From: Okeania sp. KiyG1
GTDB taxonomy: Bacteria > Cyanobacteriota > Cyanobacteriia > Cyanobacteriales > Microcoleaceae
Direction: 5' to 3'
NCBI RefSeq assembly: GCF_014132355.1
Contig: NZ_BLZO01000038.1
Coordinates: forward strand, 1-47,553
DNA length: 47,553 bases
Shown: piece by piece, positions 2,381-41,057 of the stretch
How the letters are laid out: the number at the start of each line of letters is the position of its first letter
Position numbering within the stretch: position 1 is the first letter of the stretch
Notes under the pieces: model-generated
Seen by the model: the letters and a program-made list of their open reading frames with translations, nothing else
Database searches by the model: none
What the model was told of the DNA's origin: nothing
Translations under genes and position numbers: made by a program

Positions 2381-3298
2381 ATGCGTATCCTCATTGTCAA
2401 CCCACCACACCCAGCTATTGGTAGCCGTATTCCACAGGAGCATCTCCCCCCTCTGGGGCTTTTGTGTGTTGGTGGGCCATTGTTGGATGCTGGCTACGAT
2501 GTGACTCTGCTTGATGCAGAACTTGGACCGCTCTCATACGATGAAATTGTTCGACAAGTTGTCACCCATCGCCCACAGGTACTTCTTATTGGCCACTCAG
2601 GCTCCACCTCAGCACATCCAATTGTTGTGGAACTAACTTGCCGATTCCGTAAAGAGTTGCCGGGGCTCAAAATTATCTATGGTGGAGTTTTCCCTACATA
2701 CCATTTTCAAGACATTCTCACACAGGAAGCTCAGATTGATGTGATTGTTCGCGGCGAAGGTGAGGACACTGTTCTTAAACTGATAGCAGCTATTGAAGCT
2801 AATGATGATCTTTCTATGGTAGAAGGTATTGCCTTCCGCTGTGGCGGCCGGATTATTGAAACCCCTCCAGCCCGTATGATCCACGATCTCGATGCTTATC
2901 GAGTTGGCTGGGAACTTGTTGACCTGAAGAAATATAGCTATTACGGCGGTAAACAGGCTGTTGTTATCCAGTTATCCCGAGGATGTCCACACCTTTGTAA
3001 TTATTGTGGACAACGTGGATTCTGGGCTCATTGGCGACATCGAAATCCAAGGACGCTTGCCAAGGAAATTGCCTGGCTACATCGTACTCATGGCGTTGAG
3101 CTATTCAACCTAGCCGATGAAAATCCAACAGTAAGCAAGGCAATTTGGCGTGAATTTTGTGAGGCAATCATTGCCGAAAATATACAAGTGACCATCATTG
3201 GTTCAACTCGTGCAGACGATATTGTAAGGGATGCAGACATCTTACATTTGTACCGAAAGGCTGGAGTCGAGAGGTTTCTGCTAGGGATGGAGTTTTGA
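2381..3298 (+). pseudogene. BchE-like B12/radical-SAM protein, 5' part (split by a TnpB element)
   Basis: The N-terminal two-thirds of a cobalamin-binding radical SAM protein resembling the anaerobic Mg-protoporphyrin IX monomethyl ester cyclase (BchE) family. Residues 1-130 are a B12-binding Rossmann-like domain. The radical-SAM cluster motif is GCPHLCNYC near residue 200, followed by FNLADENP and GSTRADDIV. The frame runs into TTT TGA right after GVERFLLGME, exactly where homologues continue with NTDE or TDE. That continuation is found at 4629, after a 1.3-kb TnpB element, so this is one interrupted gene. Native coding sequence probably ends near 3292. Whether the original enzyme made chlorophyll precursors is not provable here; related B12-radical-SAM enzymes act on other substrates. 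Confidence 0.8.
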
Positions 3299-4628
3299 CC
3301 TAGTTGAGAATTTACGTTATAACGCAGTATAATGAGATAGTTTTCTCTGGCAATTGAAAATACAGTCGTCAACTCAAAAAAGAGCATTGACGTAAATCAA
3401 ATAATAACTATATAATAACTTACACTCTCATAAACTTTAGGCAAACTCTTCTTACTCATACATGAAATCCATTAGAACCAAACTCAAATTAAATAATAAG
3501 CAAAAAACGCTTTTAGCCCAACACGCAGGTTATTCAAGGTGGGTTTATAATTGGGGTTTAAGTTTATGGAATGCAGCCTACAAAGATGGTTACAAACCGA
3601 ATGCCCGCAAACTTAGAGAAGTTTTTACCAATCACACAAAACCACTTTATCCTTGGATGAAAAACTTGTCTTCTAGAGTTTATCAATATGCTTTTATTAA
3701 CTTGGGTGAAGCATTTAAGAGGTTCTTTAAAGGGTTGGGAAAATACCCAAAGTTTAAAAAGAAAGGTAGGTCTGATTCTTTCACAATTGATAATTCTGGA
3801 AAACTAATAGAACTTGATGGTTGGTCTCATAAATTGCCTTTTATTGGTGTTGTGAAAACTTATGAACCAATTGAAGCAACAACTAAAAAAATAACTATTA
3901 GTAGACAAGCAGGTGATTGGTATCTCAGTTGTAGCTATGAATTTAATGGCATAACCACGGCTAAAAAAACTGATGTTATCGGTGTAGATCTAGGTGTAAA
4001 AACCTTAGCTACGTTAAGTGATGGCAAAGTATTTGACAGTGTGAGATCGTATCAGAAATTTGAAGCTAAACTCTCTAGATGTCAATACCGAAACCGGAAT
4101 AAAATTATTGGTTCTGCTAATTATAAAAAGGCCCAGTTAAAGATAGCCAAGCTACACAGAAAGGTAGCTAACATCCGTAGAAACGCACTTCATAAATTGA
4201 CAACTTACCTAGCTAAAAACCACGGCAGTGTTGTTATAGAAGATTTGAATGTCAGCGGTATGTTAGCAAATCATAAGCTGGCGAAATCTATAGCCGACCA
4301 AGGATTTTATGAGTTCAGGCGACAGCTAGAATACAAGTGCCAATGGTACGGTTCCGAGTTAGTAGTCGTTGATAGATTCTTTCCATCATCAAAAACTTGC
4401 TCGAACTGCGGTCATGTCCAAGATATGCCGTTAAATGTGAGAACTTATGACTGCGACTATTGTGGGGTATCTATAGACCGCGATCTGAATGCAAGTATAA
4501 ATTTAAGAAATGCGGTCGGCTTGACCGTTAATGCCTGTGGACGGAGTGCTGCCGACAGTTCCGGTGGAAGCAGGAAGTAAACATTAAAATGTCGCTATAT
4601 GACGTTTTATATCGGTTTTATGAAGCAG
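3293..4628 (+). mobile_element. IS200/IS605-superfamily element with tnpB only
   Basis: The segment separates two halves of a BchE-like gene that rejoin in frame (GVERFLLGME before it, NTDEITLKKIRKG after it). It contains one tnpB and no tnpA, the IS1341-like arrangement. No target duplication is seen, as expected for the single-strand mechanism of this superfamily. The exact ends are uncertain by several bases: the left end is near TTTTGACCTAG at 3293 and the right end lies before AATACGGATGAG at 4629. The ~48 bp between the tnpB stop and the right boundary could encode the 3' part of a guide-type (omega) RNA; that is inference from known TnpB systems. Confidence 0.75.
3462..4580 (+). CDS. 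tnpB: TnpB, RNA-guided nuclease-like protein of the IS element
   Basis: The 372-aa protein has a full set of TnpB features: N-terminal helix-turn-helix region (RTKLKLNNKQ, HAGYSRWVYNWGL), a RuvC-like core with Asp176 in GVDLGVKTLA, Glu260 in VVIEDLNVSGM and Asp341 in DRDLNASINL, and a zinc ribbon with Cys313, Cys316, Cys331 and Cys334 between the last two blocks. All catalytic residues are present and the frame is open, so it may be active. TnpB proteins are known to cut DNA at the vacated donor site using an RNA from the element's right end, favouring element retention. It sits inside the BchE-like gene. No tnpA is adjacent, so mobilisation would need one in trans. Confidence 0.9.
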   Translation: MKSIRTKLKLNNKQKTLLAQHAGYSRWVYNWGLSLWNAAYKDGYKPNARKLREVFTNHTKPLYPWMKNLSSRVYQYAFINLGEAFKRFFKGLGKYPKFKKKGRSDSFTIDNSGKLIELDGWSHKLPFIGVVKTYEPIEATTKKITISRQAGDWYLSCSYEFNGITTAKKTDVIGVDLGVKTLATLSDGKVFDSVRSYQKFEAKLSRCQYRNRNKIIGSANYKKAQLKIAKLHRKVANIRRNALHKLTTYLAKNHGSVVIEDLNVSGMLANHKLAKSIADQGFYEFRRQLEYKCQWYGSELVVVDRFFPSSKTCSNCGHVQDMPLNVRTYDCDYCGVSIDRDLNASINLRNAVGLTVNACGRSAADSSGGSRK

Positions 4629-5255
4629 AATACGGATGAGATCACACTTAAGAAAATCCGCAAGGGAAGTGCAACAAGCACTGATCGTGAGGCCATTCGT
4701 CTCCTGCGAAAGCATGGCATTCTTTCTCTAGCTACGTGGGTGACTGACTTCGAAGAGGTTAGCGATCGTGACTTTATTCGTTCTCTCAAACAATTACTCT
4801 GGTACGATCCTGACCAAATTATGTCGCTATATGTTACACCTCATCGCTGGACTGGATATTACCGGATTGCCTCTGAGAGACGTGTTATCCAACTTGACCA
4901 AAGTAAGTGGGACTACAAACATCAAGTACTCGAAGCAAAGTATATGTCTCCCTGGCGTATCTTTTTATGGGTAAAATGCATAGAGCTTATTTTGCAAGTT
5001 CGCCCCAGGGCACTATGGCGGTCATTTTTCCAATCTGACCAGGCTTCAAGGCATGGTATGAGTTGGTATATTCGTATGGGGCGTCGCGTCATAGCGCATG
5101 AATTGTGGAATTTCCTCTTGCACGATTTTCGGGTCAGTAACGGGCCAACATTAAGAGAATTTTGGGGTATGTCGCAAGATTACCAAGAGATCCCACTCCG
5201 CATAACATCCGCTAACGGGGCTAGTATGCAGAGCAAGATCGTGATCAAACCCTAG
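4599..5255 (+). pseudogene. BchE-like B12/radical-SAM protein, 3' part
   Basis: Native coding sequence resumes at about 4629 with NTDEITLKKIRKGSATSTD and runs to the stop at 5255. The block DREAIRLLRKHGILSLATWV, the DPDQIMSLYVTPHRWTGYYR segment and the WDYKHQVLEAKYM segment are the expected C-terminal part of the same BchE-like protein whose first part ends near 3292. The residues before NTDE (MTFYIGFMKQ) come from the IS end. Together the halves give about 510 residues, a usual length for the family, and the frame is otherwise undamaged, so the insertion is probably recent. Confidence 0.8.
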
Positions 5256-14598: not shown

Positions 14599-15162
14599 AT
14601 GTCTGTACAATTATTGCGACGACTATTTACTGTAGACGAGTATTATAAGCTGCTAGAAGCAGGAATATTAACTGAAGATGAACGAGTAGAACTAATACGA
14701 GGAGAAATTCTGAAAATGTCTCCTATTAGTCCTTCTCATGCAGGTTGTGTGAAACGTCTTGCCGAACTTTTCATTTTGGGTTTAGCAAAGACTGTTACTG
14801 TAGGAATTCAAGATCCTGTAAGATTGAACGATAATTCTGAACCAGAACCAGATATCGCTTTGCTGCAACGACGACCAGATTTTTATCGGACTCAACATCC
14901 TCAACCGGAAGATGTATTTCTCCTCATAGAAGTGGCAGATACAACAGTTAAATATGACAGAGAAGTAAAAATTCCCTTATATGCTGAGAATAATATTGTT
15001 GAAGTTTGGTTGGTGAATCTTCCTCAAAAATGTTTGGAAGTTTACCGACAACCTACAGGGAATGGTTATGAGAATGTGCAGACTTTTCAGAGCGGTGATA
15101 CTGTGACTATTCAAGCTTTGCCTAATGTAACTTTTACTGTTGATGAAATATTGGGAGATTGA
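14599..15162 (+). CDS. Uma2 family (DUF820) putative nuclease, copy 1
   Basis: The 187-residue Uma2/DUF820 protein has a PD-(D/E)XK-like fold: Glu31 and Glu36 in VELIRGE, Asp85 in EPEPDIALL, Glu111 in LLIEVADTTVKYD with Lys118, then YAENNIVEVWLVNL. The biological role of this very expanded cyanobacterial family is unknown; many neighbour mobile DNA. AAGGAG is 10 nt before the ATG. It differs from the other seven copies here at several positions (EPEPD not EPQPD, EVADTTVK not EVSDTTIK) and so is the most diverged. A DUF6883 tail and a broken DUF4926 gene follow directly. Confidence 0.85.
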   Translation: MSVQLLRRLFTVDEYYKLLEAGILTEDERVELIRGEILKMSPISPSHAGCVKRLAELFILGLAKTVTVGIQDPVRLNDNSEPEPDIALLQRRPDFYRTQHPQPEDVFLLIEVADTTVKYDREVKIPLYAENNIVEVWLVNLPQKCLEVYRQPTGNGYENVQTFQSGDTVTIQALPNVTFTVDEILGD

Positions 15163-36120: not shown

Positions 36121-39100
36121 TTATCGCTTACAAGTCTGCTTTGCTTCCCAAGCGACATCATCAGGATCAGCTTCAACCAAGATACGATGATAGCGGAGTT
36201 TCTCACAAAGCCTACCCACTAACCCCTGAAACGAAATTTCCCACACCCGCACCCCGCCCTCTTGACTGCCAGAGACAATCTGTGTGCCATCATGGTTAAA
36301 TTCTACTGACATGACCATACCTTGATGCTGTAAAGCCTCGCCAATTTGCTTACCTGTGTTGGCATCCCACACCCGCACTGTGTTGTCACGACTGCCAGAG
36401 ACAATCTTTGTGCCATCATGGTTAAATGCCACTGAATTGACCGAATCCTGATGCAGTAGAGCCTCGCCAATTTGCTCGCCTGTGTTGGCATCCCACACCC
36501 GCACTTTGTTGTCACGACTGCCAGAGACAATCTTTGTGCCATCATGGTTAAATGCCACTGAATAGACCCAATCCTGATGCTGTAAAGCCTCGCCAATTTG
36601 CTTACCTGTGTTGGCATCCCACACTCGCACCGTGCCGTCGTGACTGCCAGAAACAATCTTTGTGCCATCATGGTTAAATGCCACTGACTCGACCCCACCC
36701 TGATGCTGTAAAGCCTCGCCAATTTGCTCACCTTTGTTGGCATCCCACACCCGCACCGTGCCGTCGTAACTGCCAGAGACAATCTTTGTGCCATCATGGT
36801 TAAATGCCACTGAATTGAACCTAACCGGATACTGTAAAGCCTCGCCAATTTGCTTACCTTTGTTGGCATCCCACACCCGCACCGTGCCGTCGTAACTGCC
36901 AGAAACAATCTTTGTGCCATCATGGTTGAATGCCACTGAATTGAATCTAACCGGATACTGTAAAGCCTCGCCAATTTGCTTACCTTTGTTGGCATCCCAC
37001 ACCGACACCTTGCCGTCTGGACTGGCCGAGACAATCTTTGTGCCATCATGGTTAAATGCCACTGAATTGACCCCAAGCTGTACCTCGCCAATTTGCTTAC
37101 CTTTGTTGGCATCCCACACCCGCACCGTGCGGTCGTGACTGCCAGAGACAATCTTTGTGCCATCATGGTTGAATGCCACTGAATTGACCGAATCCTGATG
37201 CTGTAAAGCCTCGCCAATTTGCTTACCTGTGTTGGCATCCCACACCCGCACCGTGCGGTCGTGACTGCCAGAGACAATCTTTGTGCCATCATGGTTAAAT
37301 GCTACTGACTTGACCCCACCCTGATGCTGTAAAGCCTCGCCAATTTGCTTACCTGTGTTGGCATCCCACACTCGCACTGTGTTGTCGTGACTGCCAGAGA
37401 CAATCTTTGTGCTATCATGGTTAAATGCCACTGACTCGACCCCAAACTGATGCTGTACCTCGCCAATTTGCTCACCTGTGTTGGCATCCCACACCCGCAC
37501 CGTGCGGTCGTGACTGCCAGAGACAATCTTTGTGCCATCATGGTTAAATCCCACTGACTCGACCCAATCCTGATGCTGTAAAGCCTCGCCAATTTGCTCA
37601 CCTGTGTTGGCATCCCACACTCGCACTGTGTTGTCACGACTGCCAGAGACAATCTTTGTGCCATCATGGTTAAATGCTACTGAATAGACCATACCTTGAT
37701 GCTGTAAAGCCTCGCCAATTTGCTTACCTGTGTTGGCATCCCACACCCGCACCGTGCCGTCGTAACTGCCAGAGACAATCTTTGTGCCATCATGGTTAAA
37801 TCCCACTGACCAGACCATACCTTGATGCTGTAAAGCCTCGCCAATTTGCTTACCTGTGTTGGCATCCCACACTCGCACCGTGCCGTCGTGACTGCCAGAA
37901 ACAATCTTTGTGCCATCATGGTTAAATGCCACTGAATAGACCAGATACTGATGCCCCTGCAATCTATTTCGCTCCCGGAGTGCCCGAAAAGAATCTAAGA
38001 TTGCCCCATGAGCACCAGGAGAAGCCCCACGATTAGGAAACTGAACTAGGGGAGATTGAGTTAGGCCAGCAGCAGCCAGGGCATGAACTGCCGCTTCAAC
38101 GGGATCGGTAGGAAGAGTCGCTTTCGCTGTTGCGACTAGTTGTTCCACTCGCTGACGTTCTGCCTTTTGCAGTTGCTGGAAAGCGAACCCAGCAAAAGTA
38201 ATTGCACCTATAGAAATAATGCTCAAGCCAAAAATAGCCCGCTTCTGAAATTTGAGAGCCTGCTTCTGAAAGAGTTGCTGCTGTCGCTCTTTCTCTTGGC
38301 GATTTTCCTCCGCTTGGCTAGATGCCTGAAAAAATTCCACCTGCAAAGGAGTCATATCTTTACTAAGTCGCTGATGATATTCCTGAAGCAACTCCAAATC
38401 AGGGGGTCGCCACAAATTCCCTTCTGGACGGTTATTTTCATTCCAATAATTTGCTGCCTCGTCTAAGCGCCTTTGAAAGCGAATATCTTCCCGACTGCCA
38501 TCTAGCCATTCCTGAAATTTTCCCCAATGCTCAAACAAGGCTTCATGGGTAACTTCAGCGGTTTCGCTGCTGCCTGTTGCGGAGAGGGTAATTAGTCGCA
38601 CTCCGGGCGCAGAAAATAAATTAACTACTCGTTTTAACTCTTCTGGCTGATTTTGATGAGACTCTAAACTATCTAGCAAAGCCCGACGCCGGGTGTCTTT
38701 CGTTCCCTCTCCCAGTTGTACTAATCCCAAAAATACTCGTCGGGCAATTTCCTGTTCCTCTGGTTTGAGGTTGTCATAAATGCGTTGAGCTTCTCCGGCC
38801 AAAGCTCCCCCCACACCACCAATGTCTTGGAGAGTCTGGGTTGGTTGTTTCCCCTCTAATAATCCTTCCCAAATCCGAGTTAGGGCAAACTGTAACAGTG
38901 GTAAGGCCCCTTCTCGCCCTTCGGTATCTTTAATTAATAAATTAATCGTGGCCTCATCCAAAGGATGTCCCGCCAACTCTGCGGGTTTAGCGATCGCCTG
39001 CTGTAATTCGGCTTCGTTCATGGCAGGTACTAAATAACCTTGCTGAGTAAACAGACGATTTAGTTGGGAATGTTTCTGAGTTTCCTCTAAAAAGTCACTG

Positions 39101-39876
39101 CGGAATGTGACAATCACTGTAACTCGTTTCGATTTATCTTGGGCAGCACAAAGCAAATTACCGACAAAAGCATCTCTTTGAGTTTGATTTTCACAAAGGG
39201 TATAAACTTCTTCAAACTGATCTACCAGGACAATTAATGGAGAGGTGGCGATGTGGGGAAATACATTAGCAATACGTCGCAACCCATCATATTCCCCACT
39301 TTCATTACTGTGCTTCAGCTCTCCTTCAAACTCCCGACTTTTGACAACCGGAGCCAAATCATTAGTGACAATTCTAGCCAATACTGTTGCTAATGCTTCT
39401 AAAGGATTAGTCCCTGGCACTAAAATCGCTACTCTAGCTGTATCGTACCCAGGTATTGGCCTTCGTGCCAGTTCTGGAATTAGCCCCGCCCTGGCCAAGG
39501 AGGATTTTCCCGAACCAGAAGGCCCATAAATTGGTAATAAACGAATTGCATCAGCAGATTCATATAAAGAGCGCAGTTTCTCCCACAAATCAGCAATCTG
39601 TGTTTCTCGGCCAAAAAAGCGATCGCCATCGGTTTCCTGAAATGCCAATAATCCTTTGTAGGGATTTTCACCAATAGCAGCTCCAGCCTTTTTCTGAGCT
39701 GACTCCTCTGCCTGGCCAGAAGTGGCTCCAAATATAGCTTGGCCACCACTAACATAGACCACCATGCCACCCAACACCTGACCGATGGACTGGTTGCGAT
39801 CGCCATGAATGTCTTGTTGAGTTTGCAGTTCAGGGTTTGGCAAATTGGGAACTTGAGACTCTTGGGAGGATGACAT
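36121..39876 (-). CDS. nSTAND ATPase with 14 WD40 repeats
   Basis: The 1251-residue protein is a STAND-type signal-transduction ATPase. Residues 24-50 hold GDRNQSIGQVLGGMVVYVSG, related to a motif in the neighbouring CHAT protein. NPYKGLLAFQETDGDRFFGR (71-90) opens the ATPase domain; Walker A GPSGSGKSS is 118-126 and Walker B LIVLVDQFEE 214-223. A hydrophobic helix (about 568-590, FGLSIISIGAITFAGFAFQQ) may anchor it to the membrane. From about 660 there are 14 WD40 repeats, enough for two seven-bladed propellers, nearly identical in sequence (FNHDGTKIVSGS(H/R/Y)D, VRVWDAN(T/K)GKQIGEAL). Repeats sense a ligand; the ATPase would oligomerise. It is 95 bp downstream of the CHAT gene on the same strand. 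Confidence 0.92.
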   Translation of the reverse strand: MSSSQESQVPNLPNPELQTQQDIHGDRNQSIGQVLGGMVVYVSGGQAIFGATSGQAEESAQKKAGAAIGENPYKGLLAFQETDGDRFFGRETQIADLWEKLRSLYESADAIRLLPIYGPSGSGKSSLARAGLIPELARRPIPGYDTARVAILVPGTNPLEALATVLARIVTNDLAPVVKSREFEGELKHSNESGEYDGLRRIANVFPHIATSPLIVLVDQFEEVYTLCENQTQRDAFVGNLLCAAQDKSKRVTVIVTFRSDFLEETQKHSQLNRLFTQQGYLVPAMNEAELQQAIAKPAELAGHPLDEATINLLIKDTEGREGALPLLQFALTRIWEGLLEGKQPTQTLQDIGGVGGALAGEAQRIYDNLKPEEQEIARRVFLGLVQLGEGTKDTRRRALLDSLESHQNQPEELKRVVNLFSAPGVRLITLSATGSSETAEVTHEALFEHWGKFQEWLDGSREDIRFQRRLDEAANYWNENNRPEGNLWRPPDLELLQEYHQRLSKDMTPLQVEFFQASSQAEENRQEKERQQQLFQKQALKFQKRAIFGLSIISIGAITFAGFAFQQLQKAERQRVEQLVATAKATLPTDPVEAAVHALAAAGLTQSPLVQFPNRGASPGAHGAILDSFRALRERNRLQGHQYLVYSVAFNHDGTKIVSGSHDGTVRVWDANTGKQIGEALQHQGMVWSVGFNHDGTKIVSGSYDGTVRVWDANTGKQIGEALQHQGMVYSVAFNHDGTKIVSGSRDNTVRVWDANTGEQIGEALQHQDWVESVGFNHDGTKIVSGSHDRTVRVWDANTGEQIGEVQHQFGVESVAFNHDSTKIVSGSHDNTVRVWDANTGKQIGEALQHQGGVKSVAFNHDGTKIVSGSHDRTVRVWDANTGKQIGEALQHQDSVNSVAFNHDGTKIVSGSHDRTVRVWDANKGKQIGEVQLGVNSVAFNHDGTKIVSASPDGKVSVWDANKGKQIGEALQYPVRFNSVAFNHDGTKIVSGSYDGTVRVWDANKGKQIGEALQYPVRFNSVAFNHDGTKIVSGSYDGTVRVWDANKGEQIGEALQHQGGVESVAFNHDGTKIVSGSHDGTVRVWDANTGKQIGEALQHQDWVYSVAFNHDGTKIVSGSRDNKVRVWDANTGEQIGEALLHQDSVNSVAFNHDGTKIVSGSRDNTVRVWDANTGKQIGEALQHQGMVMSVEFNHDGTQIVSGSQEGGVRVWEISFQGLVGRLCEKLRYHRILVEADPDDVAWEAKQTCKR

Positions 39877-39971
39877 AAGTTTTCAGATTTGTTTTTATTA
39901 GTAAAATAAACAGGACTTAGAGACTTTTTGTAACCGTACTATTTGATAAACTAGCTCTTAGATTTAGAAAA

Positions 39972-41057
39972 TTAGATAATTTTTCGTTCAATTATCGGGG
40001 TCAAATGTTCAGGAATACCTGCCATCTGAATCGCAGTACATCCCAGTTTATAAGCAAATTCAATGGACTCTCCAGAGGCGATCGCTTCGTAAAACCCAAT
40101 GGCAAATTCAATAGCAGCTTTATCCCCGACTGCCTTATTCATCCCAATCACATAAGGTATATGTTTAGCGATCGCTTTAGCCTGAACTTCTGAGTAACAA
40201 GCATTGAGGACAACACATTCTATTTGTGGACCAAACAATTCAAATAAGTTAAATAATGCCTCGGTACTCACAAGCTGCACCTCACCTGCATCATCTTCTA
40301 ATACTAACCCGTCTGCACCGCTACCATGTCCAGAAAAATGCACAATCTGGGGTTTGCAATCAAGTAATGCTTGGTAAACATCTCTAGGACGAACAGCCCA
40401 TTGTTGTTGTATAGTAAAAGCATCTTGGCGATGAGTGCGCTTCAGTCTCGATTGAATTTCCCGCACTTCTTCACTCAATCGTAGCTGAGATGTCCCAACA
40501 GGATTAGCTGCTAAAATCAGAATTGTTTTAACATTTTTTTGAGTGTTCGTTGCTGGTATTGTGGGTGGGGGTGTTTCCGCAACTTCACCTTGATTAAACT
40601 GCGAACCAAAAGTAATACTTCCCTGAAAATCCTTAAAAACCTGTCCCCCGGAAACTGCAGATACTTCTCCTCTAGAAACCGTACCAATAGTCTGATTGTG
40701 ATTACCTGCCACATTTTGAGTAACTCTGCTGCCAGAGTTGCCATTTGAAGAGCCTTCTTTGAGAATTTGGGCGATCGCTTCTGCTAAACTTGGGTTTTCT
40801 TGGAGTAAAGTCTCTAACTCTTCCTGAAACACGTCTTTACGAGCTTTACTTTCCGGCTTTGCTTCCAACTGTTGGGCTGCTATTTTAGCATCTTCTTTTG
40901 CTTCTACTTGAGGTTGCAACTTCTCCCAAATTTTTTGAGCCTTATTCCAAGTATCCTCACCAATTTTATTCGCAGCACTCTCGGCTGATTTCTCACCAAG
41001 TTTCAGCAAAAAAGGGAGACAAGGGCTAAGTAAACCCATCAGTCCTACAATGTCCAT
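39972..41057 (-). CDS. CHAT-domain caspase-like protease
   Basis: The 361-residue protein has a C-terminal CHAT peptidase domain (about 172-361) with the catalytic pair His244 in VHFSGHGSG and Cys287 in VVLNACYSE; LILAANPVGTSQLRLSEEVR opens it. Residues 1-100 are helical and charged (GLLSPCLPFLLKLGEKSAES, EDTWNKAQKIWEKL), like an effector-associated or adaptor region. Residues 112-150 hold VAGNHNQTIGTVSRGEVSAV and SGGQVFKDFQGSITFG. CHAT proteases in bacteria act in programmed death and type III CRISPR or STAND defence. The next gene is a STAND-WD40 protein with the related motif, so the two probably work together. Confidence 0.9.
   Translation of the reverse strand: MDIVGLMGLLSPCLPFLLKLGEKSAESAANKIGEDTWNKAQKIWEKLQPQVEAKEDAKIAAQQLEAKPESKARKDVFQEELETLLQENPSLAEAIAQILKEGSSNGNSGSRVTQNVAGNHNQTIGTVSRGEVSAVSGGQVFKDFQGSITFGSQFNQGEVAETPPPTIPATNTQKNVKTILILAANPVGTSQLRLSEEVREIQSRLKRTHRQDAFTIQQQWAVRPRDVYQALLDCKPQIVHFSGHGSGADGLVLEDDAGEVQLVSTEALFNLFELFGPQIECVVLNACYSEVQAKAIAKHIPYVIGMNKAVGDKAAIEFAIGFYEAIASGESIEFAYKLGCTAIQMAGIPEHLTPIIERKII

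Follow-up and report, generated by a model that had tools for sequence, protein, structure and literature searches.

A motif common to adjacent CHAT-protease and STAND-WD40 genes in Okeania points to a probable signalling pair of the Bell/BASS kind

RESULTS

Two neighbouring genes and their common segment

The window analysed here is the whole 47,553-nucleotide contig NZ_BLZO01000038.1 of the cyanobacterium Okeania sp. KiyG1 (assembly GCF_014132355.1), and our subject is a pair of genes on its minus strand, an effector with a CHAT protease domain and a receptor with STAND NTPase and WD40 parts, which lie 95 bp apart and have a segment of ∼28 residues in common. Their layout recalls the Bell/BASS amyloid NLR signalosomes described for multicellular bacteria (Dyrka et al. 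2020, J Mol Biol; via PMC7889193, PMC9815663, PMC8086366). A preceding sequence-only reading of this window had placed both open reading frames (ORFs), the shared segments and the numbering of His244 and Cys287 correctly. The features of the two genes are as follows (KD, Kyte–Doolittle hydropathy).

39972..41057, minus strand: effector gene, 361 aa; Bell-like helical domain, motif, CHAT protease
40755..41057, minus strand: Bell-like domain, residues 1-101 (profile A1 match, helical model, hydropathy)
40635..40718, minus strand: effector motif copy, residues 114-141 (profile A2, E 9.6e-10)
40062..40529, minus strand: CHAT domain, residues 177-332 (Pfam PF12770, E 2.4e-11)
40326..40328, minus strand: His244 (SGHG), predicted catalytic dyad (sequence)
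40197..40199, minus strand: Cys287 (NAC), predicted catalytic dyad (sequence)
36121..39876, minus strand: receptor gene, 1251 aa; motif, nSTAND1, transmembrane-like stretch, 14 WD40 repeats
39736..39816, minus strand: receptor motif copy, residues 21-47 (profile A2, E 3.0e-10)
38422..39663, minus strand: nSTAND1 NTPase, residues 72-485 (Pfam PF20703, E 2.7e-109)
38179..38238, minus strand: transmembrane-like stretch, residues 547-566, KD up to 2.07 (hydropathy only)
36208..37965, minus strand: 14 WD40 repeats (Pfam, sequence comparison)

The common segment reads GNHNQTIG from residue 118 and VSGGQVF from residue 135 in the effector, and GDRNQSIG from residue 25 and VSGGQAIF from residue 42 in the receptor. 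Local alignment of the two motif regions gave a score of 67, which was reached by none of 5000 shuffles of the CHAT side (shuffle maximum 53); the likeness is real and beyond chance. The motif had been described as N-terminal in both proteins, which holds for the STAND protein; in the CHAT protein it is central, because the CHAT domain follows it, and it stands directly after a helical domain of ∼100 residues (the Bell-like residues 1-101) that had been overlooked, whereas in stand-alone relatives of this domain the motif is C-terminal. Searches for solved relatives gave nothing convincing for the motif or for the Bell-like domain. By eye, the G-x-x-N-x-x-I spacing of the motif is loosely like the RHIM core, and we make no claim on this likeness. 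Promoter-like sites (19, against 15.2 with a standard deviation, SD, of 4.1 in shuffles) and terminator-like sites (6, against 7.0 with SD 2.4) were near the shuffle level and were therefore not used as evidence.

Domains of effector and receptor

CHAT, with its His/Cys dyad at residues 244 and 287, is the only domain that Pfam reports in the effector chain. A SAVED sensor domain was not found on this chain by Pfam, and the SAVED_CHAT match of PADLOC spans residues 176-333 only; PADLOC returned domain-level CHAT matches alone, with no convincing call for a whole system. The model of the whole chain is of modest confidence (mean predicted local distance difference test score, pLDDT, 61; motif region <50), and therefore no interface was read from it; at low confidence it draws short strands at residues 114-117, 123-128, 131-133, 138-142 and 148-152. 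Its best solved match in Foldseek, over the CHAT part of the effector, was the activated SAVED-CHAT filament 8tl0 (E 2.1e-6). Full-length relatives of the effector occur, among the matches listed, in two of 389 genomes, its own included. Elsewhere in the same genome (locus L002, G000:C44) lies a degraded CHAT locus, 52% identical over residues 177-357 and with an internal stop, near a STAND-like fragment.

The receptor is of the NLR type, with an NTPase followed by repeats. The nSTAND1 family match reaches 366.7 bits against a cut-off of 27.1, and the chain carries a Walker A sequence GPSGSGKSS at residue 118 and a Walker B-like LIVLVDQFEE at residue 214. The 14 WD40 repeats have a mean pairwise identity of 77%, and their differences fall mostly at five repeat positions, a pattern that has the look of a diversifying sensor.

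The Bell-like domain and its relatives

Residues 1-101 of the effector are without any Pfam family. They are modelled as six helices (mean pLDDT 83), the first of which is hydrophobic (residues 3-21, mean KD 1.76). In genome G013, a protein of 149 aa is 67% identical over this region, ends in NEGQTIGQMTGGKAVGRIDGNIQGGVNF at its C-terminus, and directly precedes a STAND gene whose product holds NNQGQVIAQMIGGFALGQL at its N-terminus. Profile A1, built from four Bell-like domains with that of the window among its rows, finds the domain in at least 24 of 386 genomes of the phylum, counts that are lower bounds as up to 12 candidates were scored per genome; in a collection of named genomes it finds 28 loci, all with cyanobacterial record titles, whose proteins are mostly of about 130-160 aa with a G/N/Q-rich tail. 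These properties agree with the published description of Bell (PMC7889193), the class being assigned by layout. A second Bell-like protein of the Okeania genome itself (L003, G000:C72) has a different tail motif, and its neighbour carries a loosely similar segment, GIHIKDSHVESKNGHFVGRD.

Distribution of the motif across genomes

Profile A2 has 28 positions and 15 rows, both window copies among them. Applied to the 11-Mb genome of origin, it gave two matches, which are exactly the effector and receptor copies of the window; in the genus sample this genome was the only one of six to hold a motif pair. In the phylum sample (386 genomes), ten matches at E ≤ 1e-8 form five effector/receptor pairs, all of them rows of A2. 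In the order sample (389 genomes), 29 matches at E ≤ 0.01 were found in 18 genomes, and 27 of these fall in 18 loci in which a Bell-like or CHAT effector lies near a receptor, while the other two (G431, G512) are frames antisense to longer ORFs. Outside such loci, we regard two weaker matches, at E 0.039 in G096 and at E 0.016 in G033, as chance. The sequence-only reading had taken the shared segment of effector and STAND sensor to suggest homotypic docking, and named random occurrence in unrelated, non-adjacent proteins as what would speak against this; the segment was found to recur in adjacent effector and receptor genes, and random scatter was not found.

Seven of the 18 loci contributed to A2 (the window, G013, G339, G377, one of the two in G044, that of Argonema in G450, and the Chamaesiphon locus L067 in G534), and eleven stand outside it (two in G437 and one each in G464, G501, G460, G442, G488, G528, G594 and G249, together with the other G044 locus). 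A Bell-like domain is present in all eleven, G044a having been a row of A1. In ten of them the adjacent receptor is of STAND, NACHT, NB-ARC or inactive-STAND class (one inactive STAND). In the eleventh, G594 (L179), the adjacent motif ORF is just 66 aa long, and after it come transposase-like frames and then an ORF resembling iSTAND, both labelled by eye; the receptor side of this Bell pair seems to be broken by the transposase-like frames past the motif ORF. At E ≤ 1 in the fetched set, A2 detects both partners in eight of the eleven loci, with one of the two sides weak in three of these (E 0.18, 0.93 and about 0.02), the receptor only in G501, and the effector only in G249 and G044a. The motif is thus restricted to effector/receptor pairs in the genomes searched, and it recurs in loci outside the profile.

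Matching of cognate partners

The summed local alignment scores of true effector/receptor partners were compared with 100000 permutations of the partners. For 21 pairs the true sum was 1381, where permutation gave a mean of 896.5 (SD 58); for the 18 pairs of the window motif type it was 1151 against 869.7 (SD 48.7), and for the ten pairs outside A2 it was 638 against 478.7 (SD 33.5), and in none of the three sets did any permutation reach the true sum, although these counts overstate independence because the pairs were hand-picked and some are related. Cognate partners match better as a set, and the preference is a statistical one.

Rearranged parts and other paired loci

The same parts occur in other arrangements. 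Argonema antarcticum has a Bell-motif-CHAT effector, 84% identical to that of the window, and its likely partner is a NACHT protein with QTQQELKGDRNQAIG in its N-terminus. In G339, a CHAT-Bell-motif protein adjoins a motif-STAND protein, and in G437 (L171) a Bell-motif-nSTAND1 protein with a periplasmic-binding-protein-like C-terminus adjoins a motif-CHAT protein. A search with the first 176 residues of the effector found a further pair on the conjugative plasmid pREC4 of Acaryochloris marina (L199, 4923-8783), where a Bell-like protein ending in ITQNVRGDKNIVIGQSSGGSFNIS adjoins a P-loop receptor that holds VTQSVIGDKNLAIG and carries the annotation FxsT.

A wider survey took in 37 CHAT proteins, for many of which the flanking DNA extended to only about 1.5 kb; in 19 the residue flank was too small for a test, and the other 18 were tested. 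In seven of the 18, the top neighbour score was equalled by at most one of about 90 null scores. Five of these pairs look real (the window, L091, L092, L122 and L126, with L091 and L092 of one motif type), and L098 and L108 seem to be brief matches that arose by chance. In this survey the effector of Argonema (L062) was not outstanding (4 of 83), and the CHAT pair of G437 was missed, its CHAT match being split and its flank mis-set.

Shared segments of other kinds were also seen. In L120 and L091 (one locus of G661) and in L092 (G644), the CHAT protein and its neighbour share AQFGGGLVNADTVNA(G/E)QIGGNI versus SQF(A/G)GG(F/L)INAE(N/T)V, which would seem to be another family of paired motifs, quite different from that of the window. 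In L012, L184 and L185, genes that look by eye like C14 caspases have a C-terminus (ISGGFNQPGWKVGGDVIQ in L012) that matches the N-terminal end of the STAND protein encoded next (ITGGFNQRTWEVNGNVIQ). One pair of a C14-like caspase and a STAND protein, likewise named by eye, has GGFNQ-x-x-W-x-V in common. In L122, LRQ-x-L and GKYNVNIG-(Q/E)G are common to the CHAT protein and others nearby, which may mark a domain associated with effectors that has a short motif of its own.

Other features of the window

A protein of 176 aa, encoded next to the pair, had been proposed as a third component. Its relatives occur in 37 of 148 genomes (its own included), and in the five other Bell-bearing genomes that have one (G044, G249, G337, G404, G488) it lies on another contig or >290 kb away; with no locus association with Bell-type matches, we regard this protein as a bystander. 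At 2381-5255, a B12-binding radical-SAM-like frame stops at 3298 and seems, by eye, to be resumed at 4599, with a TnpB-like gene (also named by eye) at 3462-4580 between the halves. Between 14599 and 29370 lie seven closely related plus-strand genes of 187-189 aa (starting at 14599, 19996, 26123, 26771, 27413, 28109 and 28801), which we presume to be Uma2/DUF820-like.

DISCUSSION

A proposed course of signalling

Gene order, domains and the shared motif are read directly from the locus, and we consider it likely that they make up a two-gene signalling pair of NLR type and Bell/BASS kind, in which the receptor motif templates the effector. The data are best read as homotypic recruitment, in which the receptor draws in the CHAT effector. 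The course that we infer would start with a trigger sensed by the WD40 repeats, upon which the nSTAND1 NTPase would oligomerise and cluster the N-terminal motifs. The clustered motifs would then template the effector motif, the most likely form being a small cross-beta (amyloid-like) core, and among the effector chains so gathered the Bell-like domain would act at the membrane while CHAT would be activated by proximity to cleave its putative substrate. As a result the cell would die or become dormant, probably as a defence against phage. The best solved match, an activated SAVED-CHAT filament, provides a precedent for CHAT activity linked to assembly.

Beyond this, we tentatively suggest, at somewhat less than even confidence, that one NLR drives one effector with two executioners, a membrane-targeting Bell and a caspase-like CHAT, which flank a central signalling-amyloid motif. 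Assembly would trigger both, CHAT might cleave the chain and so release or restrain Bell, and the parts (Bell, motif, CHAT, NTPase) would be freely re-wired between loci.

Several observations weigh against recruitment as proposed. The motif region is of low confidence in the effector model, and in Argonema the two partners are separated by 1.67 kb and encoded on different strands. Of the 21 effectors, just nine score highest with their own receptor and 15 have it among their best two; for G044a, Argonema and G044b the true partner comes 9th, 12th and 16th, respectively. The window's own pair scores 67, a value exceeded by the window effector with the receptor ORF of G594 (87) and by the window receptor with the effector of Argonema (73). 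The permutation counts overstate independence. Bell is HeLo/MLKL-like by published proposal; the Bell-like model matched no solved fold (best E 3.1), which leaves this likeness putative for the window effector, and the Bell identity and the BASS family rest on layout.

Other explanations

The pair may also work as proposed but serve regulated development or stress-induced cell death instead of phage defence. The name CHAT is short for Caspase HetF Associated with Tprs (PMC7889193), the target of a CHAT protease can be a regulator, as when Csx29 cleaves a sigma-factor inhibitor (as described in PMC10028731), and nothing convincing at the level of a defence system came from PADLOC. Against such a role, which we think unlikely while giving it real weight, stand the patchy distribution (the two of 389 genomes with full-length effector relatives among the matches listed, and the motif pair in one of six genomes of the genus), the related pair on a conjugative plasmid, and near-identical WD40 repeats that differ mainly at five positions; these three favour, without proving, a role in conflict.

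Alternatively, the shared segment could act as a non-amyloid module for homotypic docking, such as a short beta-hairpin or beta-roll pairing edge to edge once the receptor oligomerises. The distribution, the shuffles and the cognate test would be the same for such a module, and the short strands in the low-confidence effector model would suit it. The short length, G/N/Q-rich composition and Bell-linked layout of the segment fit the amyloid motifs described in PMC7889193 and PMC8086366, a fit that does not discriminate between the two, and we judge docking of this sort to be rather unlikely.

That the likeness is chance or a general low-complexity pattern of cyanobacteria, as the shortness of the motif, its richness in G, N, Q and S and the occurrence, away from such loci, of weak matches with E under 0.05 (G431, G512, G096, G033) might suggest, is effectively refuted by the shuffle and genome counts, with no shuffle reaching the score, both matches of the genome of origin in the window pair, and all strong matches of the phylum and order samples in effector/receptor loci, and we give it next to no credence.

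Comparison with known systems

Recruitment of the effector by a shared receptor motif is close to what has been published. Bell/BASS loci, as described, combine adjacent effector and NLR genes, with a motif of 20-40 aa at the NLR N-terminus that recurs directly after the small helical domain of the effector, and the window pair has both the adjacency and a common motif of this length. The layout of the stand-alone relatives is the published one, and CHAT effectors are mentioned, BASS motifs occurring less often with CHAT and TIR domains; the pairing principle is therefore known (PMC7889193), contrary to the earlier view that pairing through such a motif was undescribed. Compared with that layout, the window effector is a less usual Bell-motif-CHAT fusion, in which CHAT follows the motif, the motif is in the middle, and each chain has two putative executioner domains.

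Receptor-templated assembly is described as proposed for Bell/BASS and demonstrated for HET-S-type systems (PMC7889193). For BASS3, work with GFP fusions in Podospora has been published (PMC9815663). In the fungal pairs NWD2/HET-S and PNT1/HELLP, as in our proposal, the NLR carries at its N-terminus a motif that templates its counterpart on a membrane-acting effector, the product of the neighbouring gene; their motif sequence differs, the motifs of HET-s, HELLF and HELLP are C-terminal, and these proteins, as described, have no protease domain, unlike the window effector (PMC7889193).

Among CHAT proteases, that of SAVED-CHAT (8tl0, an activated filament by its entry title) is related to the window CHAT domain by sequence (E 3e-13) and fold, its SAVED sensor being the part not found on our effector. 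TPR-CHAT Csx29 is likewise switched on by a sensor partner, Cas7-11; its activation is allosteric, on target-RNA binding by the Cas7-11 complex, and the account drawn on here mentions no shared motif (PMC10028731).

The window pair would offer a compact bacterial case in which a single NLR governs Bell-like and caspase-like executioners joined in one chain. According to the review (PMC7889193), an ability to work at a central position may set RHIM apart; three candidates for the same ability with another motif are the window effector, the related effector of Argonema and the G437 receptor of Bell-motif-STAND type. Moreover, the paired loci with their varied receptors, together with the unrelated motifs of other CHAT/STAND pairs, provide a test bed for motif insulation of parallel death pathways.

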